Shown one piece after another: positions 4,192-61,986 of a stretch of 64,000 bases of DNA. Where the stretch lies: contig NC_089853.1 of the NCBI RefSeq assembly GCF_036373705.1, forward strand, positions 575,001 through 639,000, written 5' to 3'. The translations under genes and the position numbers were made by a program. The stretch comes from Amia ocellicauda. Its lineage: Eukaryota > Chordata > Actinopteri > Amiiformes > Amiidae. Numbering within the stretch: position 1 is the stretch's first letter; every line of letters starts with the position of its first letter. The notes under the pieces were generated by a model, which saw only the letters and a program-made list of their open reading frames with translations, was not told the origin of the DNA and did no database searches.

Positions 4192-4249
4192 ATGGAGGCA
4201 AAGCTTCTGTCGGGATGGCTGGCTGTGTGCTGTGCGCTCAGCTCTGAAG
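4192..4249 (+). CDS. Gene A exon 1, signal peptide
   Basis: ATG at 4192 opens a 19-codon peptide with a basic start (EAK) and the hydrophobic core [11 protein letters not shown], ending at a GAAG|GTATGG donor. It leaves phase 1, which fits the V exon that follows. The equivalent exon of gene B shares WLAVCC.AL. Confidence 0.8.
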
Positions 4250-5723
4250 GTATGGAGGTTTTATATTTAATACTTATTATATTATTGATGTATTTATTTA
4301 TTAGCAGACGCCCTTATCCTGGGCGAGTTACAGCATACAAAAGCATTACAAAACGTGCAATAATACCGTATAAAATTATGATCAATACGTAATACAATTA
4401 CAATATTTATATATTCATATAAATCAAGCAGTGTGTTATATTTACAATTTACTTAAATGTATTCCAGTACATTTATACTTTGTATTTCTGTCAAGTGCAG
4501 TCACTTCAGATTAGCAGGGTTTGCTCTGGGGTTGGACTCATCAGGGTGGCAATGGGAAGGAAAGTGCAGAGTTACTGAACACACACGCATGTGGGCTCAT
4601 GCGCTGCAGCTGCTCTTCAGTGTAGAGAAACGCGGCCCTCGACCCTCTGCGGGGGCCACTCTGCTGCCCACCTCCACAGCTTCATGAACAAACACAGTGC
4701 CTCTGATGGGCAGCACAGGGGAGTTCAGTCCTGACAGGGAGACTCTCCACGGCGGAGAGATGAGTTTGTCAGACAGCCATTAGAGCGCCCTGTCGAACCG
4801 GATGCACTGCATCGTTTCAGACCTGCCTGACGAGAGGGAGGAGATGGGAGTCTTTAGACACACCTACACACACTCTTCAGCCCAGCTGGAGTCTGTGTTT
4901 GGCGTTTTGTGAATCTGGGTCCAGCTGCATTAAAGCTCATCAGTGTTTAGTACATGACCTCTACACCCCTTGTCCCCCAGGTCTCTCAGTGCTGGGCCCT
5001 GCAGAGCCGGTGGCTGCAGTGCTGGGGGCTGATGTGGTGCTGCCCTGCTTTGTGCTCATCCCCCTGCCTGTGCCGGGGCTGGAGATCCAGTGGACAAAGA
5101 CAGACACGGGCAGCACGGTGCACCTGTTCTCAGAGGGAGAGAGCTGGCCTGAGTCTCAGCACTGGCACTACAGGGGCCAGGCCGAGCTCTTCCCTGAGGA
5201 GATCCGCTCAGGAAACTTCTCCCTGAGGCTGAGGCACGTCGGCACAGGGGACACAGGGAATTACACGTGCAGAGTTCGGACGGGCCGAGCTTCTGGAGCA
5301 GCAGTGGTGGAGCTGAGGAGCGCAGGTACAGATTGATCGTGCATCAGAGAACTGGCCTCACTGGCTCCAGGTGCAGAGAGATCAGAAGTGTGTGTTTGAG
5401 TGTTTTACTGTAGTCACAGGGACGCTGTAATCCCACATGGACAGGAGCCTCTAAGAGGTTCTGTAATGGCTGAAATGGTACACCTTCACAAAACCACACT
5501 CACATCTCCTAGACTGATAAACCCTCTGTGTCTCTCCCTCAGGCTCTGCCCCATACCACACCGGCACAGTCCTGCTGTGTTGTGCGTCGCTGGCTGCTGC
5601 GCTGGCCTCTGCCGGCCCAGCCTGGCTGTACCTGCAGACACAGAGTGAGTCCAGCCCTGCAGAGCACCGATCTGGGGCTGCAGACTGAGCTTTCACTGCC
5701 AGACACACACGCCTGCTCAGCGG

Positions 5724-5810
<87 letters not shown>

Positions 5811-7215
5811 CTTCCCAGCTGTGCACACACGCACACGCACAAGCACACACACACACAGGCCTGTCCAGCTCTGCGCGCGCACACACACACACACACACAC
5901 GCATACACACACACACGCCTGCCCAGCTGTGTGCAGACACACACACACACGCCTGCCCAGCTGTGTGCAGACACACACAAACGCACACGCACACACATGC
6001 ATGCCCAGCTGTGCGCACACACGTAACAATGCAGGCTGTGCTTTGTGCTGCTGATGGTGTGTCGTGTTGTGTGTCCCTCTAGGCGAAAGCAGAGCAGCTC
6101 GGCTCGGCTGCTGTGTGAACTGCTGTGCTCCGTCCCTCGGCATGGCGGCTGCGTTGCTCCTGTGGGGCATCAGCGAGGGTGCGTTCACCCCTAACCCCAA
6201 ACCCCCACACTTACAGATATTTCACAACATAAACCCAACATCACAATCATTGATTTTGAGTTTCAGTGATTTAAAATAAATCATCAAACAGAATGAGGTT
6301 TCAGTGTCCCGTCTGTAATGCAGTGACATGAGAGAACTGGTCAGGGCTCTGAATACCTTTGCAGGGCACTGTGTATATACACTGATCAGCCATAACATTA
6401 TGACAGTGGATGGGATATATTAGGCAGCAAGTAAACATTTTGTCCTCAAAGTTGATGTGTTAGAAGCAGGATCAATGGGCAAGCGTAAGGATCTGAGCGA
6501 CTTTGACAAGGACCACATTGTGATGGCTAGACGACTGGGTCAGAGCATCTCCAAAACTGCAGCTCTTGTTGGGTGTTCCTGGTCTGCAGTGGTCAGTACC
6601 TATCAGATGTGGTCCAAGGAAGGAAAAGCGGTGAACCGGCGACAGGGTCATGGGCGGCCAAGGCTCATCGATGCACGTGGGGAGCGAAGGCTGGCCTGTG
6701 TGGTCCGATCCAACAGACGAGCTACTGTAGCTCAAATTGCCGAAAAAGTGAATGCTGGTTCTGATAGAAAGGTGTCAGAACACACAGTGCATCGCAGTTT
6801 GTTGTTGTATGGGGCTGCGTAGCCGCAGACCAGTTAGGGTGCCCATGCTGACCCCTGTCCACTGCCGAAAGCGCCTACAATGGGCACGTGAGCATCAGAA
6901 CTGGACCACGGAGCAATGGAAGAAGGTGGCCTGGTCTGATGAATCACGAGTTCAAGGTGTTGACTTGGCCTCCAAATTCCCCAGATCTCAATCCAATTGA
7001 GCATCTGTGGGATGTGCTGGCCAAACAAGTCCGATCCATGGAGGCCCCACCTCGCAACTTACAGGACTTAAAGGATCTGCTGCTAATGTCTTGGTGCCAG
7101 ATAGCACAGCACACCTTCAGAGGTCTAGTGGAGTCCATGCCTCGACGGGTCAGGGCTGTTTTGGGACCTACACAATATTAGGCAGGTGGTCATAATGCTA
7201 TGGCTGATCGGTGTA

Positions 7216-7251
<36 letters not shown>

Positions 7252-10200
7252 CACTCACCTAAAGGATTATTAGGAACACCTGTTCAATTTCTCATTAATG
7301 CAATTTTCTAACCAACCAATCACATGGCAGTTGCTTCAATGCATTTAGGGGTGTGGTCCTGGTCAAGACAATCTCCTGAACTCCAAACTGAATGTCTGAA
7401 TGGGAAAGAAAGGTGATTTAAGCAATTTTAAGCGTGGCATGGTTGTTGGTGCCAGACGGGCCGGTCTGAGTATTTCACAATCTGCTCAGTTACTGGGATT
7501 TTCACGCACAACCATTTCTAGGGTTTACAAAGAATGGTGTGAAAAGGGAAAAACATCCAGTATGCGGCAGTCCTGTGGGCGAAAATGCCTTGTTGATGCT
7601 AGAGGTCAGAGGAGAATGGGCCGACTGATTCAAGCTGTTAGAAAGCAACTTTGACTGAAATAACCACTCGTTACAACCGAGGTATGCAGCAAAGCATTTG
7701 TGAAGCCACAACATGTACAACCTTGAGGCAGATGGGCTACAACAGCAGAAGACCCCACCGGGTACCACTCATCTCCACTACAAATAGGAAAAAGAGGCTA
7801 CAATTTGCACAAGCTCACCAAATTTGGACAGTTGAAGACTGGAAAAATGTTGCCTGGTCTGATGAGTCTCGATTTCTGTTGAGACATTCAGATGGTAGAG
7901 TCAGAATTTGGTGTAACAGAATGAGAACATGGATCCATCATGCCTTGTTACCACTGTGCAGGCTGGTGGTGGTGGTGTAATGGTGTGGGGGATGTTTTCT
8001 TGGCACACTTTAGGCCCCTTAGTGCCAATTGGGCATCTTTTAAATGCCACGGCCTACCTGAGCATTGTTTCTGACCATGTCCATCCCTTTATGACCACCA
8101 TGTACCCATCCTCTGATGGCTACTTCCAGCAGGATAATGCACCATGTCACAAAGGTCGAATCATTTCAAATTGGTTTCTTGAACATGACAATGAGTTCAC
8201 TGTACTAAACTGGCCCCCACAGTCACCAGATCTCAACCCAATAGAGCATCTTTGGGATGTGGTGGAACGGGAGCTTCGTGCCTTCCATCAACTGCAAGAT
8301 GCTATCCTATCAATATGGGCCAACATTTCTAAAGAATGCTTTCAGCACCTTGTTGAATCAATGCCACGTAGAATTAAGGCAGTTCTGAAGGCGAAAGGGG
8401 GTCAAACACAGTATTAGTATGGTGTTCCTAATAATCCTTTAGGTGAGTGTATATATATATATATATATAATATACACAGATTAATTCTTTATGAATTGTA
8501 TTGATATTTCTCCAGGTTGTTTCCAGGAGGCCCTGACGTGCCCCAGCGTGAGTCTTGTCAGGATTGTGCTTCTGTTGATGGTGGCTCCGTATTCAGACAC
8601 ATTCCCTGGTATTTGCTGTATTTTGTCACTGGAGTTTGACTGATGTAGACGGAAACAATAATCACAGGAGGTTTTGACATCAGAATAAGAGGAATGATGC
8701 GCTGAATTCAGCAATAATGGAAGCAATGCTGACTGTCAGTTCAGAGATGAAATGTGCTGTCACAGATCCCCTCATATCAAAGGCATGGCTCTGTCTTGAT
8801 GAGTGGATTAATTTAAATATGAATGACTGAACGCTGTTCTTCTCTAACTTCATTGTAAAGCATTTGTTTTTGTATTTGTTTCCGTTTGACTGCAGTGAAA
8901 CTGAAATCGATACTGAGGAACACCGCAATTCCTGCAGCTCACCTGGTGGTGTCAACAGCAATGATCATCGGTAGGTCTGTGTGTGCATGTGCGTGTGCGT
9001 GTAATACAGTACAATACCAAAGCTCTTAGAACACGCATGAATGGACGCTGACTGGGTTAAAGATCAAGACTGCGCTGCTCTGTTTTCGGCAGGAGGCTCA
9101 AGTCTTCTTGCCTGTACGAGGAGAAGCCTGTGTTTTGGGGGTGTTGATCCCGGGACCAGAGAGGAGAGTCAGACATTATCCCTCCCTCATACATGACCAT
9201 GTATTGTGTTCCTATGAGCTGCTCTCTGTCTCTCAGTGGTGTCCCTCCCCTTCACAGGCGCCCTGCGCACCGGGCCGTGGGCTGACGTCTCGGGCCTGGC
9301 ACTGGCAGTGCTGGTGTTCATGAATGCTTACTCGTGCTTCTGGAAAGGTCTGTAACAATCACCCAAAAACAACAGAGCGCTCTTCCTCTGATACTGTAAA
9401 TAAGCCTCGTCTAAGACTGTGCGTTTCATCCCAAGGCTCCCACTCTGCAAGAGAGGCAACAGACTCGGCAGGTGAGCTGGAATTTGCAGGTGAATCCAAC
9501 ATCTAGGTATTGTAACACAGTTAAGAACATAAGAACGTAAGAAAGTTTACAACGAGAGGAGCCCATTTGCCCCATCGTACTCGTTTGGTGTCCATTAATA
9601 ACTACAGTGAGGGGAAAAAAGTATTTGATCCCCTGCTGATTTTGTACGTTTGCCCACTGACAAAGAAATGATCAGTCTATGATTTTAATGGTAGGTGTAT
9701 TTTAACAGTGAGAGACAGAATAACAACAAAAAAATCCAGAAAAACGCATTTCAAAAAAGTTATACATTGATTTGCATGTTAATGAGGGAAATAAGTATTT
9801 GACCCCTTCAACTTAGTACTTGGAGGTCAGACGTTTCTTGTAGTTGGCCACCAGGTTTGCACACATCTCGGGAGGGATTTTGTCCCACTCCTCTTTGCAG
9901 ATCCTTTCCAAGTCATTAAGGTTTCGAGGCTGACGTTTGGCAACTTGAACCTTCAGCTTCCTCCACCGATTTGCTATGGGATTAAGGTCTGGAGACTGGC
10001 TAGGCCACTCCAGGACCTTAATTCGCTTCTTCTTGAGCCACTCCTTTGTTACCTTGGCTGTGTGTTTTGGGTCATTGTCATGCTGGAATACCCATCCACG
10101 ACCCATTTTCAATGCCCTGGCTGAGGGAAGGAGGTTCTCACCCAAGATTTGACGGTACATGGCCCCGTCCATCGTCCCTTTGATGCGGTGCAGTTGTCCT

Positions 10201-13200
10201 GTCCCCTTAGCAGAAAAACACCCCCAAAGCATAATGTTTCCACGTCCATGTTTGATGGTGGGGATGGTGTTCTTGGGGTCATTCCTCCTTAAAACACGGT
10301 GAGTTGAGTTGATGCCAAAGAGCTCGATTTTGGTCTCATCTGACCAAAACACTTTCACCCAGTTCTCCTCTGAATCATTCAGATGTTCACTGGCAAACTT
10401 CTGACGGGGCTGTACATGTGCTTTCTTGAGCAGGGGGACCTTGCGGGTGCTGCAGGATTTCAGTCCTTCACGGCGTAGTGTGTTACCAATTGTTTTCTTG
10501 GTGACTATGGTCCCAGCTGCCTTGAGATCATTAACAAGATCCTCCTGTGTAGTTCTGGGCTGATTCCTCACCGTTCTCATGATCATTGAATCTCCACGAG
10601 GTGAGATCTTCCATTTGCGAATAATCGCACCAGCTGTTGTCACCTTCTCACCAAGCTGCTTGGTGATGGTCTTGTAGCCCATTCCAGCCTTGTGTAGGTC
10701 TACAATCTTGTCCCTGACATCCTTGGACAGCTCTTTGGTCTTGGCCATGGTGGAGAGTTTGGAATCTGATTGATTGATTGATTGATTGCTTCTGTGGACA
10801 GGTGTCTTTTATACAGGTAACGAGCTGAGATTAGGAGCACTCCCTTTAAGAGAGTCTCAGCTCGTTACCTGTATTAAAGACACCTGGGAGCCAGAAATCT
10901 TGCTGATTGATAGGGGATCAAATACTTATTTCACTCATTAACATGCAAATCAATGTATAACTTTTTTGAAATGCATTTTTTTTTTTTTGTTATTCTGTCT
11001 CTCACTGTTAAAATACACCTACCATTAAAATTATAGACTGATCATTTCTTTGTCAGTGGGCAAACATACAAAATCAGCAGGGGATCAAATACTTTTTTCC
11101 CTCACTGTAAGTGATCCAAGGATCCTATCCAGTCTGTTTTTGAATGTTCCCAAATTCTCTTCAGCCACATCGCTGGGGAGTTGGTTCAGATTGTGACGCC
11201 TCTCTGTGTGAAGAAGTGTCTCCTGTTTTCTGTCTTGAATGCCTTGAAGCCCAATTTCCATTTGTGTCCCCGGGTGCGTGTGTCCCTGCAGATCTGGAAA
11301 AGCTCCTCTGGTTTGATGTGGTCGATGCCTTTCACGATTTTGAAGACTTGGATCAAGTCCCCACATAGTCTCCTCTGTTCCAGGGTGAAAAGGTTCAGGT
11401 CCTCAGTCTCTCAGTAGGACATTCCCTTCAGACCTGGAATAAGTCTGGTTGCTCTCCTCTGAACTGCCTCTAGAGCAGCGATATCTTTCTTGAAGTGTGG
11501 AGCCCAGAACTGTCCACAGTATCCAGATGAGCTCTAACTAGTGCATTGTACAGTCTGAACATCACTGTCCTTGTTCTCAATTCTACACTTTTGACAATAT
11601 ACCCTAACATTGTGTTTACCCCAGAATTACTCTCACTTTCTCCATCCAAACAATGTGGGGAAGCAATAAAGAAGGCAATTATCTTCTTTGTCACCCCAGT
11701 ACAAGCTTGTGAATTATTATATACATTTTAAATCAGTGAAGATACACCGATCAGCCATAACATTATGGCCACTGACAGGTGAAGTGAATAACACTGATAA
11801 TCACGTTATCATGGCACCTGTCAGTGGGTGGGATATATTAGGCAGCAAGTGAACATTTTGAGTGAGCAATGGATGAAGGTGGCCTGGTCTGATGAATCAC
11901 CAGTTCAAATTCCTCAGATCTCAATCCAATCGAGCATCTGTGGGATGTGCTGGCCAAACAAGTCCGATCCATGGAGGACCCACCTCGCAACTTGCAGGAC
12001 TTAAAGGATCTGCTGCAAACGTCTTGGTGCCAGATAGCACAGCACACCTTCAGAGGTCTAGTGGAGTCCATGCCTCGATGGGTCAGGGCTGTTTTGGTTG
12101 CAAAATGGGGACCTACACAATATTAGGCAGGTGGTCATAATGTTATGGCTGATCGGTGTATATTAGAGCAGAACAGTTACAGGGAATCACACATTCTTCA
12201 CATATTTCATTGTCCGCATCCGAGAGCAGATTGAGCTGCGAGACACCGCCTCACGGTAGGTGTGTGAGAGACTCGGCTTCCAGCATCCACTCACGACACA
12301 CAGACCTCAGAGGCTCCCTGTTGTAAAACACAGATTTTAATGAAACTGACATTTGAAACCCAGTGGTTTACAGCCAGTTTCCACAGTGTGATTATAGAGT
12401 TAGCTGTCTGAGCAGACCCACTGCTTGGTGTAAGTGCTTTGCATCAGCTGTGGTATGTTTGGTCTCCACCTGTGCTGCTGTCACAAGGGGCTGTTCTGGA
12501 TAAACTGAGGGGTGACGAGGGAAGCCTGACGGAAGACGCACGACTGGCATAAAGTGACACATCGGCTAATTATTCTTGCCAGGGAGATAATTCTCTTTTT
12601 GTTTCAGCCTCCTATGGCGTGACCTCGCTGCTGCTTGGCACGGCGTTAGCGTTTTTTGCAGTGGCCCTAATCGCGCTCTCCTGTGCTTCGTTCAGTAAGT
12701 GAAACATTTTCTCAGATATAACGCTTTCCAGGGTTCAAGACGTGTACATTTTTTTTTTATTTTTTTTTTAATCGCTTTGTTACTATTATCAGTAGTATGT
12801 GGTGATTTTTCAAAACTCTTAGTACAAAACTCCAGACTGTAAAACAGCATGCCTGTGCTTTCACTTGGTCTGTAAACTTCTTTCACCACAAGATCATTGA
12901 TTCAACCACTTTGTTTTTTGTGAAACATTGGTTAAGTCATCCAAACAACACAATGCCATCCTCTCAGTTTTGTCATTGTAACAACCAGTTCATCCAAGAG
13001 CAAGCAGTGCAAGACTCGTGTTTCAAAATGACCCTTTGAAGTGCTGAAGGTCATCTGCTACAGTCAGGGGTGGAGCCGGGAGGGCTACAGGGGCACTGGC
13101 CCCTGCTGAAATGGATTGAGTGCCCCCACCCAGTCACTCCGAAATGTTCGTATATTTCATAGTCAGTTTCCCGTTCATATTCTGGACAATGGGGAATGTT

Positions 13201-19574: not shown

Positions 19575-23869
<4,295 letters not shown>

Positions 23870-51700: not shown

Positions 51701-54700
51701 CCCCGCTGTATAAATGGGGCCAAATAAGTGACAATAATGTAATTTAAGACAATTTAGTTCTTACGTGGTCTGCAGATCTCTCACATACACACAATTAAAG
51801 CTTACCTTCGTTAGTCACAGAGCCATTCCAAATTATTGCCACCGTGTTGGGTATTAAAGATTGTTGACTGTCTGTAACATAAGGTTACAGTGCTTAAAAC
51901 AGAAGTTATAACCTTATTTACAAAATATGAGCATAATGCATGCTGCAACAATGAAAGGAATCTGAAGACTTACCGAAATATTTGTTCAAGTCGAAGTCCG
52001 TGATGCTGTTTCCTGCCATTGTAGATAATCAGCAAGCAGAGGTATTCACCTCAATCAGGTAGTGCTGATGCTGCTTCAGGATGGGACCCTAACCACATAT
52101 TTATGCCTATGAATCTGCAGTGGTGGTCGTTTTTCTGGGGCTCCCCAGACTTTCAGACACCTTGGTTATATTAGAATAACCACACCCTCACAACCAATTA
52201 GCTCTCTCAGCGGCAAAATTCAAATGAATGCTAAGCTGTCGCCGCCAGGTCTCCACGGACCGGTAGCGCCTTTTGGTCATCAAAAAAAAAAAAAGATTTT
52301 ATGGCAGCGACTTTTATCACTTTACTTAGATTGTTAAATTAAATTAATGAGGTATAAGGGGTTAAGAATGTAAGAAAATAATGTGGTATATTGTAACATT
52401 TGTAAACCAAGATAAGGGGCTGCTAAGAATTTGAATAATAGCTTAAGTTTAAATCTTATGAACATTTAAGACAGTTAGAAGACCTGACACCCTCACACTC
52501 TCCGGTAAGAACAAAGGCCTGCAGAACTAATCAGCGTGTGTGTAGGAAGTGGGGTGGCTAAGGGTGAGAGAAGGAGAGAAGGAGAGGGGGCTTCTTGGGG
52601 GATGAGGGCGATATGAGTGTACACTTCCGTCTGGATATGACGCAGGAATAATTAATCAGATGACGTCACAAGCCATAAAATATAAGACTTTCATCTTTAA
52701 TATGAGGGGAGTTACATCCAAATTGGGTGAACAGTGTTGTGAGTGTTGTGTGTTGTAAATTGTGAGTTTCAATACTTGATTGCAAATCCTATCACCAGAT
52801 GCTGGGTTTCTTCCCTGGTGATGCTCTGCCAGGCCTGTGCTGCAGCTGTCTTTAGTTCCTGCTTGTTCTTGGGGTGTTTTGCCTCCAGTTTTGCCTTCAG
52901 CAAGTGAAATGCTACTCTATTGGATTCAGGTCAGGTGATTGACTTGGCCATTGCAGAACATTCCACTTTTTCACCTTAAAAAGTTTTGGGTTGCTTTTGC
53001 AGTATGCTTCGGGTCATTGTCCATCTGCATTGTGAAGCGCTGTCCAATGATTTTTGGAGCATTTGGCTGAATCTGAGCAGATAATATAGCCCTAAACACT
53101 TCAGAATTCATCTTGCTGCTTTTGTCAGCAGTCACATCATCAATAAATACAGCCATACATGCCCATGCCATAACATGCTTCACAGATGAGGTGGTATGCT
53201 TGGGATCATGAGCAGTTCCTTCCCTTCTCCATACTCTTCTCTTCCCATCATTCTGGTACAAGTTGATCTTTGTCTCATCTGTCCATAGGATGTTGTTCCA
53301 GAACTGTACAGGGTTCTTTAGATGTTTTTTGGCAAACTCTAATCTGGTCTTCCTGTTTCCTGTTTCCATATTGTGGTAAACCCTCTGTATTTACTCTGGT
53401 GAAGTCTTCTCTTGATTGTTGACTTTGACACAGATACGCCTGCCTCCTGGAGGGTGTTCTTGATCTGGCCAGCTGTTGTGAAGGGGTTTTTCTTCACCAG
53501 GGAAAGAATTCTTCTGTCATCCACCACAGTTGTTGTCCGTGGTCTTCCGGGCCTTTTGGTGTTGCTGAGCTCACCAGTGCGTTCTTTCTTTTTAAGAATG
53601 TACCAAATAGTCAATTTGGCCACACCTAATGTTTTTACTCTCTCTCTGATTGGTTTGTTTTGATTTCTAAGGCAGAATGCCTCCAAGAACAAGCAGGAAC
53701 TAAAGACAGCTGCAGTGCAGGCCTGGCAGAGCATCACCAGGGAAGAAACCCAGCATCTGGTGATGTCTATGGGTTCCAGACTTCAGGCAGTCATTAACTG
53801 CAAAGGATTTGCAACCAAGTATTGAAACTGACAATTTAATTCATGATTATGTTAGTTTGTCCAAATACTTTTGAGCCCCTAAAATCGAGGGTACCACATA
53901 TAAAAATGGGTGTAATTATTATACTGTTGTTACGCCAGGAATAAGGGATCCAGGAGCGGGGCTTTAGACAGAGTCTGAGAACAGGCGAAAGGTCTGGGTC
54001 CGGCTAACACTGTTATCAAGGATATCCGAGAGGTGAGGTCAGTAAATGAGCAAGGGGTCAGGCGATCGGGGAAACAATGCTAGAGGGAAATATCCAGAAG
54101 GCTAGGTCGAGGTAGGGAAATCTGAGGTCAAAAACTGGAAACAAAAGGCTCGGCAATGCTGCAATGAAGGCAAGGCAAAACTTCACAGAGAATGTAACTA
54201 ACAAAGGTGTACAAATACTAAAGGCAGGGTAGAGGTAACTGGAGACAGGTGTGAAATAATTGATAGAAAACTACTGGGAAATAATTCAATAATGAGAGGA
54301 AAGACAGGATTGAGAAGGATCGGAGATAGAACCTTGCATGTTGGTGGCCTCTGGTGTAGAATAGAGGATCAGTCACAGTGCTGGCTTGACAACCGTTCAC
54401 CCAATTTGGATGTAACCGCCCTCAAATTCAAGGTGAAAGTCTACACTTCAAGCACATCTTCATTGTTTCCTTTCACATCCATTGTGGTGGCGTACAGAGC
54501 CAAAATGATGACAATTGTATCATTGTCCAAATATTTATGGACCTAACTGTAAAAGTGGACTATATTAAAAATATGTGGATTTTCTTTTTTATTTTGTAAA
54601 TTTTTAAATAACTGGTTACAATATTTTGTATCCAGGAAACATACCTTTATAATTGTATCAACAAAAAATTAAGTGCAAAATGTTCACTGTTATTTTTCAC

Positions 54701-57700
54701 AGCATGTTTTTATAACACAACCACGGACGTGGGTTCACTGGGTATGTTTTATTTTGTATTATTAATTTTAAAATGATTTTATGGTATCCAGGCTGTGGTC
54801 AAAGTAGCACAATAATGTAGACTACAGTGCTTTCAATATTTAAATAGCTTTTTAGTGCTGGTCATGGTAACTAATGCCCTTTTCTGAGTGGCTAAAAGCA
54901 CAGTAAAAGCGCAGATTGAGCCCTATGAGCTGTGGGTCACCTCTCGTCCAGTTAGTGCTGAACCTCCCTATACAGCCTGCGGTGTCTAGAATGACAGGCG
55001 GATGGGATTGTGGGATCCTGGTCATACTTCCTCACCCTCCCAAAGTGTAGTGGCGGGGGACGAGATGCTTACTGAACACATTATAAATGCTTACTATAGT
55101 TATATAATGCCTTTTTAGTACAAAATATATTTGACAGTGAGAAACACTAAAACATATTTTTCTTACAGGTTTCTTTACTATTACTTCGTTCTTTGATACA
55201 ATTCTAGCACTATTCTTTGGATCCTTTAAAGTAATAGTTGGTAAGTTGTCCAATGAACAATTAAAATTATTGTTATGAACTTAGTCTGGTGGTTCAGCAC
55301 AAATATAACATTTCACATTTTTAATACTAAATGGTTGAGGCATATTTTCTAGTATAATTTCTTAAGCTCATCTGTTAATAATGAAAACACAACGGCCCTG
55401 ATTTTCCCTCTGGGTGCTCTTTGCCCTTGTAATTTATTGAGTATGAGGCCACTTGCCCATAGTTTTCTCAGAGGGAAAATAAGAACCAAAATGTAAAACA
55501 AAATCCTCTATTTCTGCAATGGTCATCAACTATTTACTGATTTATATATGTTTGTTTTGTGTCTTTGCAGGTTACGTGGTGGGAATGTGTTTAGCATGTG
55601 TGTTATTAGCTACTGTTTCAGTCAAAATATTTAAGTGTTGTGGAACAGCCGGCCGTAAGTAGAGAGTTCTGAAATGTATCGTTTCCACGGTTAAATAACT
55701 ACCACTAATTGAATTAATGTGCGATATTCCTTCATGAAATTTCACTGATTCATTAAAAAATGTATGTTAATATCTGAGAAACTATCTGGTTTTCCATGGG
55801 AAGGCCTTTATTAATGCCTAGTTGTTTCAGACAGCTGTGTTTGCTTTAGATGCAACAGTATATAATAAGCTAGTAAAAGCTGGGCTCTTGTAGTGCCACA
55901 CTGGTATCATATCAATGATCTCATATAAAACAAAGCATCATGGTTAATTAAGAACCTCTTTCAGTCCTGAGTGAAACAACACTCAGCTGCAAAGGCAACA
56001 TTATGTTTAATATTTAAAGTCAGTGTAATTGATAGACAATTGCTAATAAGCTCTTAATATTACATGATGTATTTAAAAAACATAAGCAGTGTGTTGGAAG
56101 TTTTGTTAGTAGCTGAACACACTGATCTGCAGCTTTGTAAGATCAGTTACTGAAGCAGTTTTAATACGATCATACAATAACATGTGGATTGTATTTGTCT
56201 TTGTATACAAATACATTTTCATTCACTAAAGAAGATCATTATTGATTTCTTTTCAGGAAACGTATTACAAATCTTAAAACACCATTGGACAATTGTACTG
56301 TCTGTCTGGTATGGTTGTCAAATTGTGCCTGATCAGTTTCTGTCACTGTGAACTGGTCTGACGGAGATGCTGTGGTGTTTGTGCGTTATTCTAATACATT
56401 ACTTCACCTTAGTCAATTATTTTCTTTCAGCCTTTATTCAGAAAATTGCTTTCCTGATTCTTCTTATTCTTACAATCACATTGAGCTTACTTTACGTGGA
56501 TGACACTGTGGAGAATGACAGAGGTATGTAGAGATATCTATTATCAGTGAGTCTGTTTTTCCTCTAAGAGCTACATTAGTAAGAACATTGGATTCCTACA
56601 AACATTTGTCTTATATTGCTAGGATCACACGTAAATACAGATAAAATGAAGCTCAGGCTACTGTACTTGTGGACTATCTACAGTGAGGGGAAAAAAGTAT
56701 TTGATCCCCTGCTGATTTTGTATGTTTGCCCACTGACAAAGAAATGATCAGTCTATAATTTTAATGGTAGGTGTATTTTAACAGTGAGAGACAGAATAAC
56801 AGCAAAAAAATCCAGAAAAACGCATTTCAAAAAAGTTATAAATTGATTTGCATGTTAATGAGGGAAAAAAGTATTTGATCCCCTATCAATCAGCAAGATT
56901 TCTGGCTCATTACCTGTATAAAAGACACCTGTCCACAGAAGCAATCAATCAATCAGATTCCAAACTGAGACCAAAGAGCTGTCCAAGGATGTCAGGGACA
57001 AGATTGTAGACCTACACAAGGCTGGAATGGGCTACAAGACCATCACCAAGCAGCTTGGTGAGAAGGTGACAACGTTGGTGCGATTATTCACAAATGGAAG
57101 GAACACAAAATAACTGTCAATCTCCCTCGGTCTGGGGCTCCATGCAAGATCTCACCTCGTGGAGTTTCAATGATCATGAGAACGGTGAGGAATCAGCCCA
57201 GAACTACACGGGAGGATCTTGTTTATGATCTCAAGGCAGCTGGGACCATAGTCACCAGGAAAACAATTGGTAACACACTACGCCGTGAAGGACTGAAATC
57301 CTGCAGCGCCCGCAAGGCCCCCTGCTCAAGAAAGCACATGTACAGGCCCGTCTGAAGTTTGCCAGTGAACATCTGAATGATTCAGAGGAGAACTGGGTGA
57401 AAGTGTTGTGGTCAGATGAGACCAAAATCGAGCTCTTTGGCATCAACTCAACTCACCGTGTTTTAAGGAGGAGGAATGACCCCAAGAACACCATCCCCAC
57501 TGTCAAACATGGAGGTGGAAACATTATGCTTTGGGGGTGTTTTTCTGCTAAGGGGACAGGACAACTGCACCGCATCAAATGGACGATGGACGGGGCCATG
57601 TACCGTCAAATCTTGGGTGAGAACCTCCTTCCCTCAGCCAGGGCATTGAAAATGGGTTGTGGATGGGTATTCCAGCATGACAATGACCCAAAACACACAG

Positions 57701-60700
57701 CCAAGGCAACAAAGGAGTGGCTCAAGAAGAAGCACATTAAGGTCCTGGAGTGGCCTAGCCAGTCTCCAGACCTTAATCTCATGGAAAATCTGTGGAAGGA
57801 GCTGAAGGTTCGAGTTGCCAAACGTCAGCCTCGAAACCTTAATGACTTGGAGAGGATCTGCAAAGAGGAGTGGGACAAAATCCCTCCTGAGATGTGTGCA
57901 AACCTGGTGGCCAACTACAAGAAACGTCTGACCTCTGTGATTGCCAACAAGGGTTTTGCCACCAAGTACTAAGTCGAAGGGGTCAAATACTTATTTCACT
58001 CATTAACATCCAAATCAATTTGTAACTTTTTTGAAATGCGTTTTTCTGGATTTTTTTGTTGTTATTCTGTCTCTCACTGTTAAAATACACCTACCATTAA
58101 AATTATAGACTGATAATTTCTTTGTCAGTGGGCAAACATACAAAATCAGCAGGGGATCAAATACTTTTTTCCCTCACTGTATATGGAATATGGTGTCTGG
58201 AATACATACACACATAAACACATACATCCTGTCTGGAATACAGTCTGAGTGGCAGAGAACAGTTCAGAGGGAACCTGCCACTGTAGCCTTTATAAAGTGC
58301 ATTACAAATGATCCATACATAGTCATTGACTGTCTTCCAGTGAGCAATAAAGGTCAGGTTTGAATTGCATTGCTGTGCTCATCTACATATTCCGTGTTTA
58401 AGTCCACCACACTACTTCACCTGCTCTTGTGATTTGAGGTTAGAGTTTGTAGTAAAGTGCCATTTTCGGTCAATCACTATATTCTTGTTTTAAATGTTCA
58501 GTGCCCAGCAGTCCCCTCTTCTGGGGTGTTCTACTATGCAGAACTTTTTTACAGAATAAAAACAGTTAATACTTACTCTTTATAATGTGCATTTGAATGT
58601 TATAATGTGTTTTGTGCTGAATGTGATTACAGGACGCCTTGGACGGATGTGTGAAATGGCATTTCTCTTTATTCTACTCAGCCCAGAGGCCTTTAAACAT
58701 CTCAACATACCTGGTACAGTGTGTTTGTGTGCAAGCTTGTGTGCTGCCTGTGTGACCTAGGTTACCGTATTCTTACACTCCTAATAAAGTAAAAAAGACA
58801 CCAGAAACATATACAAGCAGAATTGTTAGATTTTAATACTGCCAGCAATGCATTATACATTTCAACACTGATTTAAGCACAGCTGTGGTCTTTTTATCAC
58901 AATAAATAATTAATGTTGTAAAAGTAGATCCTCAAAAGTATAATTAAACAAATGTAATAAGTGCACAATATCACTTGAGAAACAAAACCAGGTGACAAGA
59001 TGAAAATATGAATGATAAAAACTGGAGTCTGTAACACAAGAACTCAGCATTAATACAGTATAACATGCTTAATATGCACAGATTGTATTCTGTACTTTGG
59101 TACTCTGGTTATTTGGTAGCATGTTTTAATAGAAAGCAGTAGAAGCAGCTGGAGATGAAAACCCAGTGTGGGTGAATGTCACATCACTAATGGGAAGAAT
59201 GTATCCACCCCTGGGGCAGTTACATGGGCTTCTTTAATACTTTCAAATATGATCGAGATGCTGTTTGTGTTTAGTTCAGAAAACTAACAACTTCAGCAAA
59301 ATACTCTGCATGAAGAACATTAAAGATACAACAAAAGAAAAGAATTGAGACCTAAAGAAACTCCCTTCTCTGTGCTTTCAGCTGTACCTCACACGCTCCT
59401 GTACATGTTTGGGGCCACAGCTGTGGCTGCAGTGAACGCCTGTGCTCTGGCAATAGAGCTCATCCTGAAAGCAGGTACTGTATACGCAAATATTTCATGG
59501 GTAATAATTGCAGCGAAAATTGCCAAATGACTACAGTCCTCGTGAAAATAAATCCTTGCATAATAATTTATAGTGCCACTGAATATAATTGGTTAAATAT
59601 GGCACTTTGAAAGTAAACATTGCCAAAAGCCTCGTGCCTCTGTGGGAGGTGTAACCAAAGGAAAACAGTCCAGAGGCACCTGAGACACAATAAACCTGAA
59701 TTATTAACACTACAAGTAACTGTCTACCATGTATAAAGTCAAGAAGTTTTCAAAGTTTTCTATTTAAAACAAAAAAGAGGTGAATTTTATTTACATCGAT
59801 TTGGATTATTCCCCTCTATAACTGTGGACTAACCTACTATGGTGAATGCTACTTTATTTTTATTCTGTACATTACTTATTTTGTATGATTGTGTGCTTAA
59901 TCATTCATTTGTAATGTACTGTAATGGATTTATATCCCTGTTATCTTGTTACTGATTGAAAAACTTATTCTACAAAACATAAATATATTTGGTGTAAAAA
60001 AACAAATTTTATGTTGATTTACTTTATTTTAGTCCATTTAAACTGTTAAAGGTTTATTTTATTTTTCATTTTGTTGTAGAATGTTGTACCTTGTAGCCAA
60101 ATTCATTGAGAATGTCTGTGTTCATTTTGTAATTATTTCTTATTTTTCCTCATTTGTGTATGTAATATTGTTTGACCTTTGAACTGTAGGAAAAGAAAAT
60201 CAACTGCGCATGAGCAGTATTGTTATGATCAATAGGGCAGTGTTTGCAGAAGTTAGACAGAAAAGAGAAGAGCGCATATAGTGCTGGAAGAAAAAAGTTT
60301 TTTTACTGTTCATTTAATTGTTTATTCAATCAGTCAGCGTAGTCAGTTTCGTTATTTATTTAGAATAGCGTATTGCATGCTATATGCTACATGACTGTGG
60401 AAGATTGAAGACTGTTAATAAATTGGTTATTCAGTGTTTTCATGATTCTGCTGAGGATTTGTGAGTAGCCTCCTGAAGCTAGCCTATCTCACATATCTCA
60501 CATTTGAATACAAGGACACGCACACGTCATGACCTACATCTTGCACTACAATGATCTAAGTAGCAGTGAAAGGAAAATATTTTTTCTACTATCCTCTGTA
60601 AAACACTCTGTGGCTACCCTGCGAAGGGTGCTATACAAATAAAAGTTGATTAATATTTCTCATCTGTTCATCATTCATACTTAAACAGCTATTAATTTGT

Positions 60701-61986
60701 GACTTGGTGCAAGGGCAATGCTAAAACAATTTCAGCAAAGACTAGTTATAATTTATGATAGAATGACTCTGATAAAAGTGTCAAATCTGATTGTATTGGA
60801 AATTATCATTGAATGTTGAATCTGTGACTGATCTTCAATAACTGTTTCAGAAAATGGCCAGCGCTCTGTGAAGGATCTGCGTGTCGTGGTGTTTCCCTGT
60901 GAATCCATCTTTGTGGGCTGCTGGCTCCTTTTACAGATGTTTGCCAACTGTACGTATCTGATATGAGAGGCTTTCTCACTAAACTGAAATAAATTGGTAG
61001 GATTTCTAAATATTGTAACACTTGGGGGGTTTTCGGGTCACAGTGAGATGGGGACTCAACCCCCGTCTCCTGCACCACAATGCAGCAATCTTACCGCATC
61101 AGGCCTCCTAGTGAGGCTCGACATCGCTCCAATTGTCAATATATATCATTCAATGTCCCCACGTTACAACAACTCTTAAGATAAACAATTGTAATTTTGT
61201 CTTCATTATTAACAGCTAACCAACTAATTTGTAGGACAGAAAAGCAAGTGTTCTATATTACTTACCTCTGTTGCATATACTACATTAATGATAACTTTCA
61301 ATTTGTACTTATTGCTTTCAGTTCAGATAAAGAAGGAACAAACGAGTAAGTATAATTTTAAAATATTTAATATTTCTCCCCTTCTAAATATAAAATTTAA
61401 TTATTTGTATCCCTATGTCTATATAATATATAAAGTAGATCCATTGTAAAATGTTCAGAAAGCTTGATTCCTGATTTATAAGTGTTTTCTACACTAATAC
61501 ACTTTAACAATTGTCTGCCTTCTATTCAGCATTTTGGATCTAAAGTTCTTTCGTTCTCTTCAAATCTGTGGGAGTTTAGCTTCTTATTTATTTTTAATTG
61601 TTTTTGAATTAGGATACGAGGTTCACAAGCATAACCAGGAAGATTACCCCGGCAGGTGTGTTTTCTTTTCTACACAGTATAGTGTGTCAGAGTTTTGTGT
61701 TTTTATCTGGAGATCTTATTCTGGTTTCTAGTAGAAGAAGCATAAGATATTTGTTGGCTTTTTCCTTGTTTGAGCCACTACTTTGTCAGGACAGTCAATG
61801 AAGATTGATATGTTTCAAGACTTTCAAGACTGAATAAAAACCCACCTCTGTATTTGGCAATGTCTGTTGTGTAAATCATGCTTTTGTGTGTTGTACTGCA
61901 GACAGAGAACATCACCTATTGAATCAATGCAATTAAATCAACTCGATGAGAGGGAGCGACCGGACACCGATCACATGACTCGCTGA
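24707..61986 (+). CDS. Gene B: double V-set Ig, multi-pass membrane protein (butyrophilin/SKINT-like)
   Basis: Hand-built spliced model of 18 exons: 24707-24761, 26627-26977, 33201-33548, 34029-34145, 34743-34838, 35289-35381, 37418-37492, 42202-42318, 54703-54741, 55169-55240, 55571-55654, 56431-56523, 58633-58713, 59382-59474, 60851-60949, 61327-61345, 61530-61655, 61902-61986. The joined frame is open for 680 codons and ends at TGA (61984). Signal peptide 1-18; V-set domains at 19-135 and 136-251; about 12 hydrophobic segments from 252 to 650; a polar tail ending DTDHMTR. Phase is 1 throughout until the 19-base exon. Exons 5, 6, 7, 14, 15 and 16 equal gene A's in length (96, 93, 75, 93, 99, 19). 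Introns have swollen to 37 kb by mobile DNA; one, 42319-54702, holds a nested Tc1/Polinton/L2. A plasma-membrane immune ligand or receptor is the inference. The exon at 35289 has a weak acceptor. Confidence 0.85.
24762..26626. other. Gene B intron 1, no gene recognised
   Basis: AT-rich to 25540. The GC-richer block at about 25545-26290 has the look of an old LTR or other insert but no paired ends or coding motif was found. Confidence 0.4.
26627..26977 (+). CDS. Gene B exon 2, V-set domain 1
   Basis: 351 bases, phase 1 to 1. [34 protein letters not shown] and DAGKYRC mark a full V-set. Sequons at NVT, NYS and NNT. Nucleotide sequence is very close to the gene A V exon over most of its length, indicating recent duplication or gene conversion. 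Confidence 0.92.
27123..27601 (+). mobile_element. Solo LTR with 5-bp target duplication
   Basis: Begins TGACAATCACAG and ends GGACTGTGACA, flanked on both sides by GCTTG (27118-27122 and 27602-27606). A TATA-like CTTTATAAACCCC lies near 27280. No internal region and no second LTR copy nearby, so it is a solo LTR formed by recombination. Orientation is inferred from the TATA box. Confidence 0.7.
27646..28139 (-). repeat. 3' LTR of the gypsy element
   Basis: On the - strand it starts TGTAGCGATCC and ends AAGGTCACTACA (TG...CA). 494 bases. The inner ~300 bases match the other LTR closely. Confidence 0.88.
28175..29124 (-). pseudogene. Ty3/gypsy integrase region
   Basis: The - strand frame 29124-28618 shows an integrase core: FHSDQG-type motif ([11 protein letters not shown]), then [18 protein letters not shown] with the catalytic Glu near residue 90, matching the D-D-35-E layout of retroelement integrases. 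The upstream zinc finger and first Asp are missing because the LINE interrupts. The ATG-like start lies in the LINE tail, so it is not genuine. A downstream frame (28852-28175) covers the proline-rich C-terminal extension, with a frameshift near 28600. Inactive. Confidence 0.88.
29405..30483 (-). pseudogene. LINE ORF2, endonuclease part only
   Basis: Frames 30483-30118 and 30016-29405 give the apurinic-type endonuclease: NIRSL near the start, LILTETWL, then [11 protein letters not shown] and [11 protein letters not shown], with the catalytic Glu, Asp/Asn and the SDH motif. A frameshift lies near 30100. The linker continues ([20 protein letters not shown]) but no reverse transcriptase follows. 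Confidence 0.88.
30697..31329 (-). pseudogene. LINE ORF1 with SGNH-esterase-like domain
   Basis: About 210 codons. The N-terminus has a CxxC...CxxC-like finger (YCLSC..., FTCTKC), then a coiled-coil-like stretch, then [13 protein letters not shown] and [15 protein letters not shown] and GTND are the block I and III motifs of SGNH hydrolases found in ORF1 of CR1- and L2-group LINEs. The C-terminal part runs out of frame near 30700 (the continuation 30731-30468 has the C-terminal DGLHPSWRG block with the His). Confidence 0.85.
31420..32182 (-). pseudogene. Ty3/gypsy gag-like region
   Basis: Frames 32182-31664 and 31794-31420. The second carries the gag-type stretch [20 protein letters not shown]...[18 protein letters not shown], typical of the capsid N-terminus of fish gypsy elements. 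A frameshift separates it from the upstream charged region. It stops at the LINE junction. Confidence 0.7.
32366..32675 (-). repeat. 5' LTR of the gypsy element, truncated
   Basis: About 310 bases, near-identical to the inner part of the 27646-28139 LTR (shared GTTTATTAATCTGTTACAG, CTTATATACACCCCCTATC). The outer ~185 bases of the LTR are missing, so no target duplication can be checked. Confidence 0.85.
33201..33548 (+). CDS. Gene B exon 3, V-set domain 2
   Basis: 348 bases, phase 1 to 1. [29 protein letters not shown] and DQGEYRC. The first ~140 bases and the last ~100 are clearly diverged from V1, while 33341-33445 is almost identical to both other V exons. The 5-kb gypsy insertion lies between V1 and V2. 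Confidence 0.92.
35490..35620. repeat. Repeat unit also present at 40105-40380
   Basis: The GTGCTGACAGTCAGGTTATC...CCAGTCGAGTTCC stretch and the following ATGTTCCATTTAAAT...TTGTAATGTTAAT recur at 40105-40165 and 40322-40380, where a SINE-like insert splits them. Confidence 0.8.
35621..35969. other. Gene B intron, unrecognised sequence
   Basis: Sits between the 35.5-kb repeat unit and the L2 fragment. GC content is higher than around it. I see no gene or known repeat. Confidence 0.4.
35970..36495 (+). mobile_element. L2-type LINE 3' fragment
   Basis: Encodes the end of the L2 ORF2: [34 protein letters not shown], then [15 protein letters not shown] and stop. Closely parallels 49860-50424. 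A short deletion near 36400 removes the APKWWND stretch partially and shifts frame. 5'-truncated. Confidence 0.88.
36500..37417. other. Gene B intron, nothing recognised
   Basis: Non-coding, leading to the exon at 37418. No named repeat. Confidence 0.4.
37796..37980. mobile_element. Tc1/mariner terminal-repeat relic
   Basis: ACTGGTCAAAAGTTTTAGAACACCCCCATTTTTCCAG is a characteristic fish Tc1/mariner end. No transposase and no partner end was found. Confidence 0.65.
37981..39330. other. Gene B intron, unrecognised, AT-rich
   Basis: Contains an (ATT)n run at 38756-38781, a poly-T stretch at 39060-39073, and a hairpin-forming GGGTCCATGTA...TACATGGACCC at about 39138-39176. G-rich GGGGAC repeats lie at 39300-39335. 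No coding exon. Confidence 0.5.
40024..40105 (-). mobile_element. CR1 3' end, short fragment
   Basis: AGAACATAAGAACATAAGAA followed by the CGAGAGGAGGCCATTCGACCC block shared with 22820-22880. Only the 3' terminus of the LINE remains. Confidence 0.75.
40166..40320 (+). repeat. tRNA-like SINE (partial)
   Basis: GGGCAGTGCTGTTGTACCCTTGAGCAGGTACTTCAC, then GTAAGTCGCCCTGGATAAGAGTGTC and an (AAT)n tail. It splits the repeat unit described at 35490. The tRNA-like head is largely missing. Confidence 0.75.
40385..41315 (-). mobile_element. CR1-like LINE 3' fragment, longest copy
   Basis: The - strand reads the C-terminal part of the CR1 polymerase protein: [17 protein letters not shown], then [20 protein letters not shown], then LVRALLDTV. 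That is the stretch after the catalytic YADD motif; the upstream polymerase core is missing. Frameshifted and with a ~40-base deletion near 40615-40630. Confidence 0.85.
41690..42201. other. Gene B intron, nothing recognised
   Basis: Non-coding sequence before the exon at 42202. Confidence 0.4.
42578..42793. repeat. Polinton left terminal inverted repeat
   Basis: Matches the reverse complement of 52487-52684 with scattered changes; also carries CT-rich TCTCCTTCTCTCCTTCTCTCAC, whose complement is at 52562-52585. Confidence 0.9.
42943..43466 (+). pseudogene. Polinton ORF of unknown function, frameshifted
   Basis: A frame beginning [13 protein letters not shown] at 42943 ends at 43101, and a second frame from 43104 continues in similar style ([20 protein letters not shown]) to 43466. 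The change of frame at about 43100 looks like a one- or two-base indel in a single gene of roughly 170 codons. I do not recognise a domain. By position (left end, + strand, upstream of capsid and protease) it should be a structural or early protein, which is a guess. Confidence 0.5.
43479..43745 (+). pseudogene. Polinton ORF, unknown
   Basis: About 88 codons, mixed charged/helical ([20 protein letters not shown]). May belong to the preceding gene or to a separate one; no family recognised. It overlaps the start of the capsid remnant frame. Confidence 0.4.
43740..44035 (+). pseudogene. Polinton major-capsid-protein C-terminal remnant
   Basis: The block [20 protein letters not shown], then [19 protein letters not shown] and IVYSVFDN resembles the C-terminal end of the double-jelly-roll capsid protein of metazoan Polintons (often annotated as F54H12.2-like). 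Only about 100 of the usual ~500-600 residues remain, and there is no intact start. Family assignment is from memory of the motif pattern. Confidence 0.6.
44037..44423 (+). pseudogene. Adenovirus-type cysteine protease of the Polinton, frameshifted
   Basis: Shows the protease pattern: catalytic His in [10 protein letters not shown], an acidic position and FFDSYG downstream, and the catalytic Cys in [10 protein letters not shown] near 44385. About 130 codons in all. The frame breaks at a C homopolymer (44262-44271) directly after FDSYG, separating His from Cys. In Polintons this enzyme processes capsid proteins. Confidence 0.82.
44965..45333 (-). CDS. Small Polinton protein, unknown
   Basis: Up to 122 codons (a start at MASQENG is more likely, about 106). 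Acidic low-complexity N-terminus, then a compact C-terminal part: [38 protein letters not shown]. Open with no stops. I have a weak impression that this C-terminal pattern recurs in Polinton-related elements, but cannot confirm it. Confidence 0.5.
   Translation of the reverse strand: MVRQGEKDYNTLTLNMASQENGVADAGAVVADTGPVEDASSSAELDVVTDVLRNMPSRSRRNADYILHKMAQKPRVTAWNEQGEFVFKGQLIKGSHMFDLLKSVTSTNKIPASCRPVGWNSF
45402..47615 (-). pseudogene. Protein-primed family B DNA polymerase remnant (Polinton pPolB)
   Basis: One frame on the - strand from 47615 to 45402, interrupted by two in-frame stops (TAG at 47066-47064, TGA at 46709-46707). The N-terminal part has three degenerate tandem repeats ([36 protein letters not shown]). 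The middle has Cys/His-rich pairs (CPFC, CRKG...CKGC, CPKC, CQLC). The 3'-5' exonuclease I motif FFDFEC is followed by a deletion and a [10 protein letters not shown] block. The polymerase palm motifs are absent, so the C-terminal half is lost. Inactive. Confidence 0.8.
47693..48031 (-). CDS. Small Polinton protein, unknown
   Basis: 112 codons, open, starting [14 protein letters not shown]. Ends with a helical stretch ([20 protein letters not shown]). No domain recognised. Lies just upstream (on the - strand) of the polymerase gene. The next 250 bases contain related-looking GG(T/G)GGTCC units. Confidence 0.45.
   Translation of the reverse strand: MSLSPPAILYPRNGSSTPLYARVLPSIVWSPLESLRSTPSNIRQYAAIGRGLLDRQPYIPEPVEDLLEIIPQVVCELLRVLENQRIVVDAQNLAIEGQNLIMNTVNNAKYRI
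48560..50424 (+). pseudogene. L2 LINE reverse transcriptase, frameshifted
   Basis: Segments 48723-49268, 49290-49772, 49460-49795 and 49672-50424 together cover the polymerase: LDFSAAFDT (motif A) near 49335, [18 protein letters not shown] (motif B) near 49500, the FYADDAQIF catalytic box near 49590, and a C-terminal region ending [10 protein letters not shown]. At least three frameshifts. Endonuclease and ORF1 are missing through 5' truncation. Confidence 0.88.
50655..50870 (-). repeat. tRNA-like SINE
   Basis: On the - strand: GGGTTCAAATCCCGGG (B-box), CCTTGAGCAAGATGCTTCACTT, and the tail TGTAAGTTGCCCTGGAAAAG. It lies within the 3' part of the L2, in opposite orientation. Confidence 0.75.
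50990..51490. other. Polinton non-coding or decayed sequence
   Basis: AT-rich; no open frame of note. It should contain later exons of the spliced - strand gene that starts at 52019, but none could be assigned. Confidence 0.4.
51498..52019 (-). CDS. Spliced Polinton gene, 5' three exons
   Basis: Three consecutive - strand exons with GT-AG borders and matching phases: 52019-51974 (ATG GCA GGA AAC..., donor CG|GTAAGT), 51871-51806 (acceptor TTACAG, donor AAG|GTAAGC), 51574-51498 (acceptor TTCCAG, donor AGG|GTAAGT). They join to a 63-codon open frame starting [15 protein letters not shown], with no stop. The end is not found, perhaps because of the deletion/L2 insertion at lower coordinates. 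No family recognised; splicing of a Polinton gene near a terminal repeat is the notable point. Confidence 0.5.
51655..51740 (+). repeat. SINE fragment
   Basis: TTGCACCCTCGAGCAAGGTACTCCACATAGATTG and CTGTATAAATGGGGCCAAATAAGT match the SINE centre. Both ends are lost. Confidence 0.65.
52487..52684. repeat. Polinton right terminal inverted repeat
   Basis: Inverted partner of the left repeat. It ends ...GCCATAAAATATA and passes straight into Tc1 sequence, so the outermost part found on the left (42578-42609) is missing here. Confidence 0.9.
52971..53737 (-). pseudogene. Tc1-like transposase of family 4
   Basis: Two frames (53737-53339 and 53369-52971). DNA-binding part: [21 protein letters not shown], then [10 protein letters not shown] (GRPR hook). 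Catalytic part: LWTDETKIN and [18 protein letters not shown]. Downstream the third catalytic Glu should lie at about 52900, where the LNPIE-equivalent is visible on the - strand (SPDLNPIE) but out of frame. Frameshifts near 53340 and 52970. Confidence 0.88.
53928..54391. mobile_element. Solo LTR in the Tc1 right terminal repeat
   Basis: Runs from TGTTACGCCAGG to GGCTTGACA (TG...CA), flanked by ACTGT (53923-53927) and ACCGT (54392-54396), a five-base target duplication with one mismatch. It interrupts the Tc1 repeat between GTAATTATT and ACCGTTCACCC. No coding content. Confidence 0.65.
56257..56308 (+). pseudogene. Decayed extra copy of the fourth membrane exon
   Basis: After a good TTTTCAG acceptor the frame reads [18 protein letters not shown], paralleling the exon at 37418-37492 ([17 protein letters not shown]) base by base for its first ~45 bases. 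It is followed by GTATGG, but 52 bases breaks phase, so inclusion would cause a premature stop. I left it out of the gene B model. Confidence 0.55.
56681..58179 (+). mobile_element. Tc1-like element (family 3), full length
   Basis: Perfect family ends CAGTGAGGGGAAAAAAGTAT and ATACTTTTTTCCCTCACTG with TA on each side. Transposase on the + strand. Same family as 9605-11107, in the opposite orientation relative to the window. Located in a gene B intron. Confidence 0.95.
56965..57972 (+). pseudogene. Tc1-like transposase, frameshifted, catalytic triad present
   Basis: The start codon region is deleted (the frame begins ...[12 protein letters not shown]). A base is lost near 57073 and again near 57310-57320 and 57360. 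From 57397 to 57972 the frame is open: [24 protein letters not shown] and DLNLMENLW, so both Asp and the Glu remain, then the C-terminus to TKY and stop. Confidence 0.9.
58182..58632. other. Gene B intron, nothing recognised
   Basis: Non-coding between the Tc1 element and the exon at 58633. Confidence 0.4.
58720..59381. other. Gene B intron, nothing recognised
   Basis: AT-rich, no repeat named. Confidence 0.4.
59480..60850. other. Gene B intron with LINE tail
   Basis: AT-rich. A short LINE 3' tail lies at 60608-60650 (+): GGCTACCCTGCGAAGGGTGCTATACAAATAAAA, the same tail as the LINE at 29115-29165. No other feature recognised. Confidence 0.5.
60605..60652 (+). repeat. LINE 3' tail fragment
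   Basis: Matches the complement of 29135-29160 almost exactly (CTACCCTGCGAAGGGCGCTATACAAATAAAA). Only the terminal ~45 bases were inserted or survive. Confidence 0.7.

Follow-up and report, generated by a model that had tools for sequence, protein, structure and literature searches.

Butyrophilins are built from an IgV domain, an IgC domain and a single membrane span, often with a B30.2 domain. SKINT proteins combine IgV and IgC domains with three spans, the number given for SKINT1, and no SKINT-like sequence was detected beyond placental mammals, according to passages of PMC4382165. CD47 was called the only five-span receptor of the immune system in 2021, and passages of that source (PMC8410850) describe a V-set ectodomain that leads into a helical bundle of several spans and then into a short tail subject to alternative splicing. 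The same passages state that cd47 is present only among higher vertebrates, that a third cysteine of the V domain is joined to an extracellular loop, and that the five-span bundle and its loops keep the V domain in orientation. CD47, with a V-set domain and five spans, is the closest known layout to the gene pair analyzed here, and it was absent from the readings offered in a first-pass annotation of this DNA.

The window, meaning the whole stretch of 64,000 nucleotides that was analyzed, covers positions 575,001 to 639,000 of contig C4 (55,603,009 bases) in the 988 Mb genome of Amia ocellicauda (bowfin). It contains LOC136747518 (gene 1) and LOC136747517 (gene 2). In a residue-by-residue spliced mapping, isoform X2 of gene 1 (P0001) matched exactly at 519 of 519 residues to 4192-18351, and isoform X2 of gene 2 (P0003) at 638 of 638 residues to 24707-61986. 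Both mapped chains have AG/GT splice sites and stop codons, and positions 4192 and 61986, given earlier as the outer limits, coincide with the first coding base of gene 1 and the last one of gene 2. The bowfin proteins P0001-P0004 are NCBI predictions, and the spotted gar proteins P0005 and P0006 are likewise predicted. The coding exons of gene 1 are listed first, placed by mapping where no other basis is given.

4192-4249, plus strand, start codon and signal-peptide exon, phase 0-1 (exact match to P0001)
4981-5325, plus strand, single V-set exon, phase 1-1 (Pfam scan and mapping)
5543-5644, plus strand, span 1 exon, 102 nt (exon scan and mapping)
6083-6178, plus strand, span 2 exon, 96 nt (exon scan and mapping)
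8516-8608, plus strand, span 3 exon, 93 nt, with the intramembrane Arg (mapping and four-protein alignment)
8896-8970, plus strand, span 4 exon, 75 nt
9258-9347, plus strand, span 5 exon, 90 nt
9436-9471, plus strand, linker exon, 36 nt (9436-9489 in isoform X5)
12608-12694, plus strand, span 6 exon, 87 nt
14509-14598, plus strand, span 7 exon, 90 nt
14954-15043, plus strand, span 8 exon, 90 nt
15260-15352, plus strand, span 9 exon, 93 nt, marginal hydrophobicity (mapping and hydrophobicity)
15502-15594, plus strand, span 10 exon, 93 nt, AVPH..LYM
17145-17243, plus strand, span 11 exon, 99 nt (11 protein letters not shown)
17417-17435, plus strand, tail exon, 19 nt
17786-17822, plus strand, tail exon, 37 nt
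18295-18351, plus strand, last coding exon with stop

Gene 2 has the following coding exons, with the basis given in the same way.

24707-24761, plus strand, start codon and signal-peptide exon (exact match to P0003)
26627-26977, plus strand, first V-set exon, Va (Pfam scan and mapping)
33201-33548, plus strand, second V-set exon, Vb, skipped in X5 (Pfam scan and mapping)
34029-34145, plus strand, span 1 exon, 117 nt
34743-34838, plus strand, span 2 exon, 96 nt
35289-35381, plus strand, span 3 exon, 93 nt, with the intramembrane Arg (mapping and four-protein alignment)
37418-37492, plus strand, span 4 exon, 75 nt
42202-42318, plus strand, span 5 exon, 117 nt
54703-54741, plus strand, linker exon, 39 nt
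55169-55240, plus strand, span 6 exon, 72 nt
55571-55654, plus strand, span 7 exon, 84 nt
56431-56523, plus strand, span 8 exon, 93 nt
58633-58713, plus strand, span 9 exon, 81 nt, marginal hydrophobicity (mapping and hydrophobicity)
59382-59474, plus strand, span 10 exon, 93 nt, AVPH..LYM
60851-60949, plus strand, span 11 exon, 99 nt (11 protein letters not shown)
61327-61345, plus strand, tail exon, 19 nt (61322-61345 plus 61613-61655 in X5)
61902-61986, plus strand, last coding exon with stop

The mapped chains give the gene structure as predicted and confirm the earlier observation of a tandem paralogue pair in which, in the predicted chains, V-set exons join a multi-span body directly. 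Each gene has a signal-peptide exon, 11 span exons and one linker exon; to these gene 1 adds one V exon and three tail exons, and gene 2, in isoform X2, two V exons (Va and Vb) and two tail exons, P0001 thus having one V domain and P0003 two. Exon order is the same in both genes, the linker exon separating span 5 from span 6, and every exon that lies between the signal-peptide exon and the tail exons has phase 1-1. The six exon lengths reported as equal between the paralogues are correct: 96 (span 2), 93 (span 3), 75 (span 4), 93 (span 10), 99 (span 11) and 19 (tail). The open frames of 561 and 680 codons given at that stage differ from the X2 isoforms, which have 519 and 638. The full span number is taken from the NCBI chains, our own hand-spliced chains being less complete: neither contained the linker or span 9, the gene 1 chain also missed span 4 and started span 5 at another AG, and the gene 2 chain also missed the signal exon.

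Isoform X5, the only further one examined among the others that exist for these genes, skips exactly spans 1-3 in gene 1 (P0002) and spans 1-3 plus Vb in gene 2 (P0004), leaving 8 spans. Since this number is even, the rest of the body would be inverted unless one span is left out, and the predicted X5 products are to be viewed with caution. PF26428 appears among the precomputed domains of P0003 and is unlisted in the Pfam scan, which is one version older.

Several other elements share the locus. Between the two genes, at about 19860-20716 on the minus strand, lies a gene matching PF09799 (E 4e-8, one 47-aa piece), which we take to be TMEM80-like. Pieces named by eye as EPS8-like occur in the upstream flank (L014), and a minus-strand ORF of 3127 aa, a Thr/Ser/Pro repeat of mucin type also named by eye, occurs in the downstream flank (L013). 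ORFs resembling, by eye, Tc1/mariner transposases, integrases, endonucleases and reverse transcriptases are found at 6424-8417, 9813-10808, 52971-53782 and 57289-57972, at 28.6-30.2 kb and at 48.5-50.4 kb. An intron of gene 2 holds a block of long ORFs at about 43.0-48.3 kb (e.g., minus strand 45402-46706, 434 aa), for which 6 pieces gave no Pfam match over the cut-off and which is possibly a large mobile or virus-like element.

By sequence, the ectodomains are V-set domains of the BTN/MOG/B7 type, which supports the BTN/MOG/SKINT family named in the first-pass annotation. PF07686 (V-set) scores above its cut-off in P0001, P0003, P0005 and P0006, with E-values of 4.5e-9 for P0001 and 3.8e-24 for P0003. 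Among the best 60 of 96 PDB matches of P0003 are CD276 (E 6e-26, two stretches), BTN3A1 (8e-17), MOG (8e-16), SKINT1 (2n4i, E 1.6e-10) and PD-L1 (1.4e-9). All seven V domains (7/7) contain the two canonical cysteines only. The V domain is thus what the proteins share with butyrophilins, BTNL, MOG and the B7 proteins CD276 and PD-L1, whereas Pfam scans list no C1-set, C2-set or B30.2 domain at E up to 1, and by this and by its 11 spans the pair is not an ordinary butyrophilin.

The contrast extends to other V loci of the same genome. Among 87 matches in total, the top five V exons from elsewhere in the genome show 42-45% identity and all lie on C20; the pair on C4 stands apart from the many BTN-like V exons of C20. 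At five other bowfin V loci, drawn from 20 selected at first (four of the five on C20 and the fifth on C6), span-like exons within a distance of 8 kb number 1, 2, 1, 3 and 0, and a long run of spans occurs at none of the five, which form a small sample. At three of them, L036-L038, the order reads V, a second Ig-like ORF (by eye) and one span, as opposed to the 11 spans and no listed Ig C domain of the present pair.

The same combination of V domains and body is seen in the spotted gar proteins P0005 and P0006 and in alligator gar P0007 ('BTNL1 protein, partial'), which looks mis-predicted in its middle by eye. In the gar proteins, the tail and the loop that connects span 5 to span 6 are both longer than in bowfin. 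Among the matches listed, protein searches returned relatives only in bowfin, spotted gar and alligator gar; these searches, two of which scored candidate lists capped at 8000 and the third a list of 317, are insensitive, having missed known relatives (the gar proteins, P0001 and P0003, in one search each), so that relatives in teleosts, sharks and other groups may have been passed over. No earlier report of such proteins was recognized by title or abstract start in open-licence full texts, and a term search of the main text of the bowfin genome paper (PMC8423624) gave 0 mentions of butyrophilin or BTNL.

Hydrophobicity analysis, with a cut-off of 1.2 chosen here, assigns 11 spans each to P0001, P0003 and P0006 and 10 to P0005, in which span 9 is missed. 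Span 9 is marginal in the two bowfin proteins (1.39 and 1.25), as is span 10 of gene 1 at 1.28, and the C-terminus would lie outside if span 9 were absent. AlphaFold models of both bowfin proteins, built from 5-row alignments and used solely for the helix count, contain 11 body helices each at low confidence; with mean pLDDT values of 47.2 and 46.8, helix packing is unreadable. Within the 11 to 12 spans estimated at first, the number is therefore likely to be 11 rather than 12. With the V domains set outside and the first 30 residues of each loop counted, the inside:outside ratio of Lys plus Arg is 15:6 in P0001, 14:7 in P0003, 18:10 in P0006 and 21:12 in P0005 (10 spans). A scan for hydrophobic exons flanked by phase 1-1 splice sites, whose rules were fixed only after the first exons had been seen, gave 18 plus-strand clusters, of which 16 overlap with the 22 true span exons. 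The minus strand yielded 3 clusters, and 10 length-matched Markov-3 sequences yielded 0-5 (mean 2.3), in line with the initial judgement that the arrangement is unlikely to be due to chance.

Comparison of the paralogues indicates that the body is kept as a protein, with a pS of 0.81 against a pN of 0.42 over 310 aligned codons and saturation at synonymous sites. Amino-acid identity per exon ranges from 19% (span 5) to 56% (span 11), the least conserved exons being those of spans 4, 5 and 8, where 19-24% of residues are common to both paralogues. Exons at the same position score better than shuffles (z > 3) in 8 of 11 cases, and spans 5, 6 and 8 fail. Across four proteins, two from bowfin and two from gar, 67 of 360 body residues are invariant and 44 of these 67 lie within spans, 36 of the 44 in spans 2, 3, 9, 10 and 11; conservation across spans 4-8 is loose. 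Polar intramembrane residues are conserved at Asn303, Arg338 and Glu521 (P0003 numbering), and the Arg of span 3 is invariant in all four proteins. The two gar bodies are 85% alike in global alignment, so the comparison amounts in effect to three lineages. Gar is 43% alike to gene 2 in global alignment (38-39% by BLAST) and 32-33% to gene 1 in global alignment.

These data also bear on whether the V exons and span exons are in fact different genes that only gene predictors and the first-pass annotation had joined. The V-body junction is in register at phase 1 in both paralogues, the gar predictions show the same continuity from V domain to body at the protein level, and the body is conserved as protein, all of which makes such an artificial fusion very improbable.

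The two-V layout of gene 2 can be compared with that of gar. Bowfin Va is 62-63% identical to gar Va and 50-51% to gar Vb, and bowfin Vb is 66-67% identical to gar Vb, against 54% in the other pairing. This Va-Va and Vb-Vb pairing suggests that the two-V layout predates the divergence of bowfin and gar; gar Va and Vb are themselves 65-67% identical, as close as gar Va is to bowfin Va, and a small V tree, with 2 of its 4 inner branches open, gives no settled age for the layout. At the DNA level, the V exon of gene 1 and Va of gene 2 are 90-97% identical over the first ~240 of 342 bases and 55-75% at the end. The shared tract pairs 4970-5233 with 26616-26885, and in the central part of 33201-33548 Vb has a shorter tract common to the gene 1 V exon and Va (92-97% in two windows). 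Because the V tracts are this similar while the bodies are synonymously saturated, gene conversion is the likely explanation, apparently sparing the last strands at the CDR3-like end of the V domain.

Family searches with the body returned little. Pfam gave no significant match for the four bodies (best E 0.075, in one of the four), NCBIfam none (best E 0.33) and the PDB sequences none, the best being a GAF/HD protein at E 0.3; a PADLOC scan of both proteins returned nothing. Since no sequence match was found, the body may be a new membrane fold. In body searches of the whole bowfin genome, 14 of 14 and 6 of 6 matches fell within these two genes (15 and 10 candidates scored), most being the query gene itself or a close reading of the same. 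Gene 1 was recovered only at E 0.05 and 2.8 in one case and 0.01 and 0.4 in the other, so an equally distant copy of the body would be near the detection limit. Two candidate origins of the body were considered. Internal exon duplication is unsupported, as 0 of 220 pairs of different-position exons reach z > 3, in a test of limited power that 3 of 11 true pairs also fail. TMEM80 was suggested as a source by the likeness, by eye, of AVPH..LYM to its first span, and was rejected for want of a consistent register: exon by exon, 6 of 88 pairs with the body reach z > 2.5, scattered, and PF09799 is not listed for the bodies in the Pfam search.

Set against the described systems, the proteins are V-set proteins of BTN/B7 type that carry their own kind of membrane body. 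They resemble SKINT in having a BTN-type V domain, with SKINT1 among the PDB matches, and more than one span, and CD47 in joining a V-set ectodomain to several spans, so that an expanded SKINT, or a relative of CD47 by descent, comes into question. The gar V domains do touch the Pfam V-set_CD47 family (PF08204) weakly, with E-values of 3e-4 and 9e-4 and scores of 20.9 and 19.4 bits, just below the cut-off of 21; the bowfin proteins are unlisted, and the bowfin genome has 5 weak PF08204 matches, 2 over the cut-off (C22 and C6) and none in the window. PF04549, the family of the CD47 membrane region, is unlisted for the four bodies at E up to 10, where HMMER filters drop most matches above about 0.1, and its lack of any match over the cut-off in the bowfin genome leaves no positive control for CD47 there. 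As each V domain has two canonical cysteines only, a V-to-loop disulfide of the CD47 type cannot form in the same way, and there are 11 spans instead of five; by PF04549 and cysteine content, the pair is not CD47. Nor is it SKINT by the defining features, since no Ig C domain is listed and the spans number 11, not 3, and the proposal of an expanded SKINT relative is not upheld. Descent from either system is also at odds with the distributions in the passages cited above, placental mammals for SKINT-like sequences (PMC4382165) and higher vertebrates for cd47 (PMC8410850), and we consider it quite unlikely.

The conserved polar residues raise other functional readings. In the receptor-transporter or receptor-channel hybrid proposed at the outset, the body would move a solute or an ion and the V domains would sense or gate this movement. 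In its favor, invariant polar residues lie within spans 2, 3 and 9-11, and many transporters have about 11 spans. The body nevertheless matches nothing significantly in Pfam, NCBIfam or the PDB sequences and contains no internal repeat by the weak exon-pair test described above, and the proposal gained no positive evidence; we regard it as unlikely. Its wider form, a family of polytopic immune receptors with gars and bowfin as the only known bearers to date, in which butyrophilin-type V domains sit on an 11-span body that itself transports or conducts and so would unite ligand binding with membrane flux in one chain, is distinctly doubtful. Alternatively, the V domains could bind a ligand while the span-3 Arg pairs with an acidic ITAM adaptor of DAP12 or FcR-gamma type. 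The invariance of this Arg in the four proteins is compatible with such a signaling receptor, as are tails lacking tyrosine motifs of their own: no ITIM or ITAM pattern was seen by eye after span 11 in P0001 or P0003. An Arg in a polytopic body can equally serve packing, however, and ITAM adaptors usually pair with single-span receptors, which leaves this arrangement improbable.

The reading that we favor, at a probability of roughly 55%, is that of a holostean cell-surface ligand or co-regulator carried on a polytopic 11-span anchor, somewhat like CD47. In this single chain, a signal peptide would precede one or two extracellular V domains of BTN/B7-like kind; the 11-span membrane body would come next, and the C-terminus would lie inside the cell, in a short tail that lacks any recognizable tyrosine motif. 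Such V domains bind receptors carried by other cells. The shortness of the tails and the absence of such a motif by eye make the protein look more like a displayed ligand or co-regulator, whose V domains would be read by lymphocyte receptors, than like a receptor with its own signaling tail. By analogy with the five-span bundle of CD47, the polytopic body would act as a structured anchor that fixes the pose of the V domains and supports assembly. Counting against this reading are the conserved Asn303, Arg338 and Glu521, which exceed the needs of a plain anchor, as well as the marginal span 9, the weakly kept spans 4, 5 and 8, the failure of spans 5, 6 and 8 to reach z 3, and X5 isoforms, whose 8 spans would leave the remainder inverted.

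An 11-span BTN-like protein common to bowfin and gar would have a membrane body far larger than those of the V-domain families compared here. This raises the testable question of what a V-domain ligand gains from so large a bundle, and it appears that an immune-type surface molecule with an unusual shape arose in an ancient lineage of fishes.
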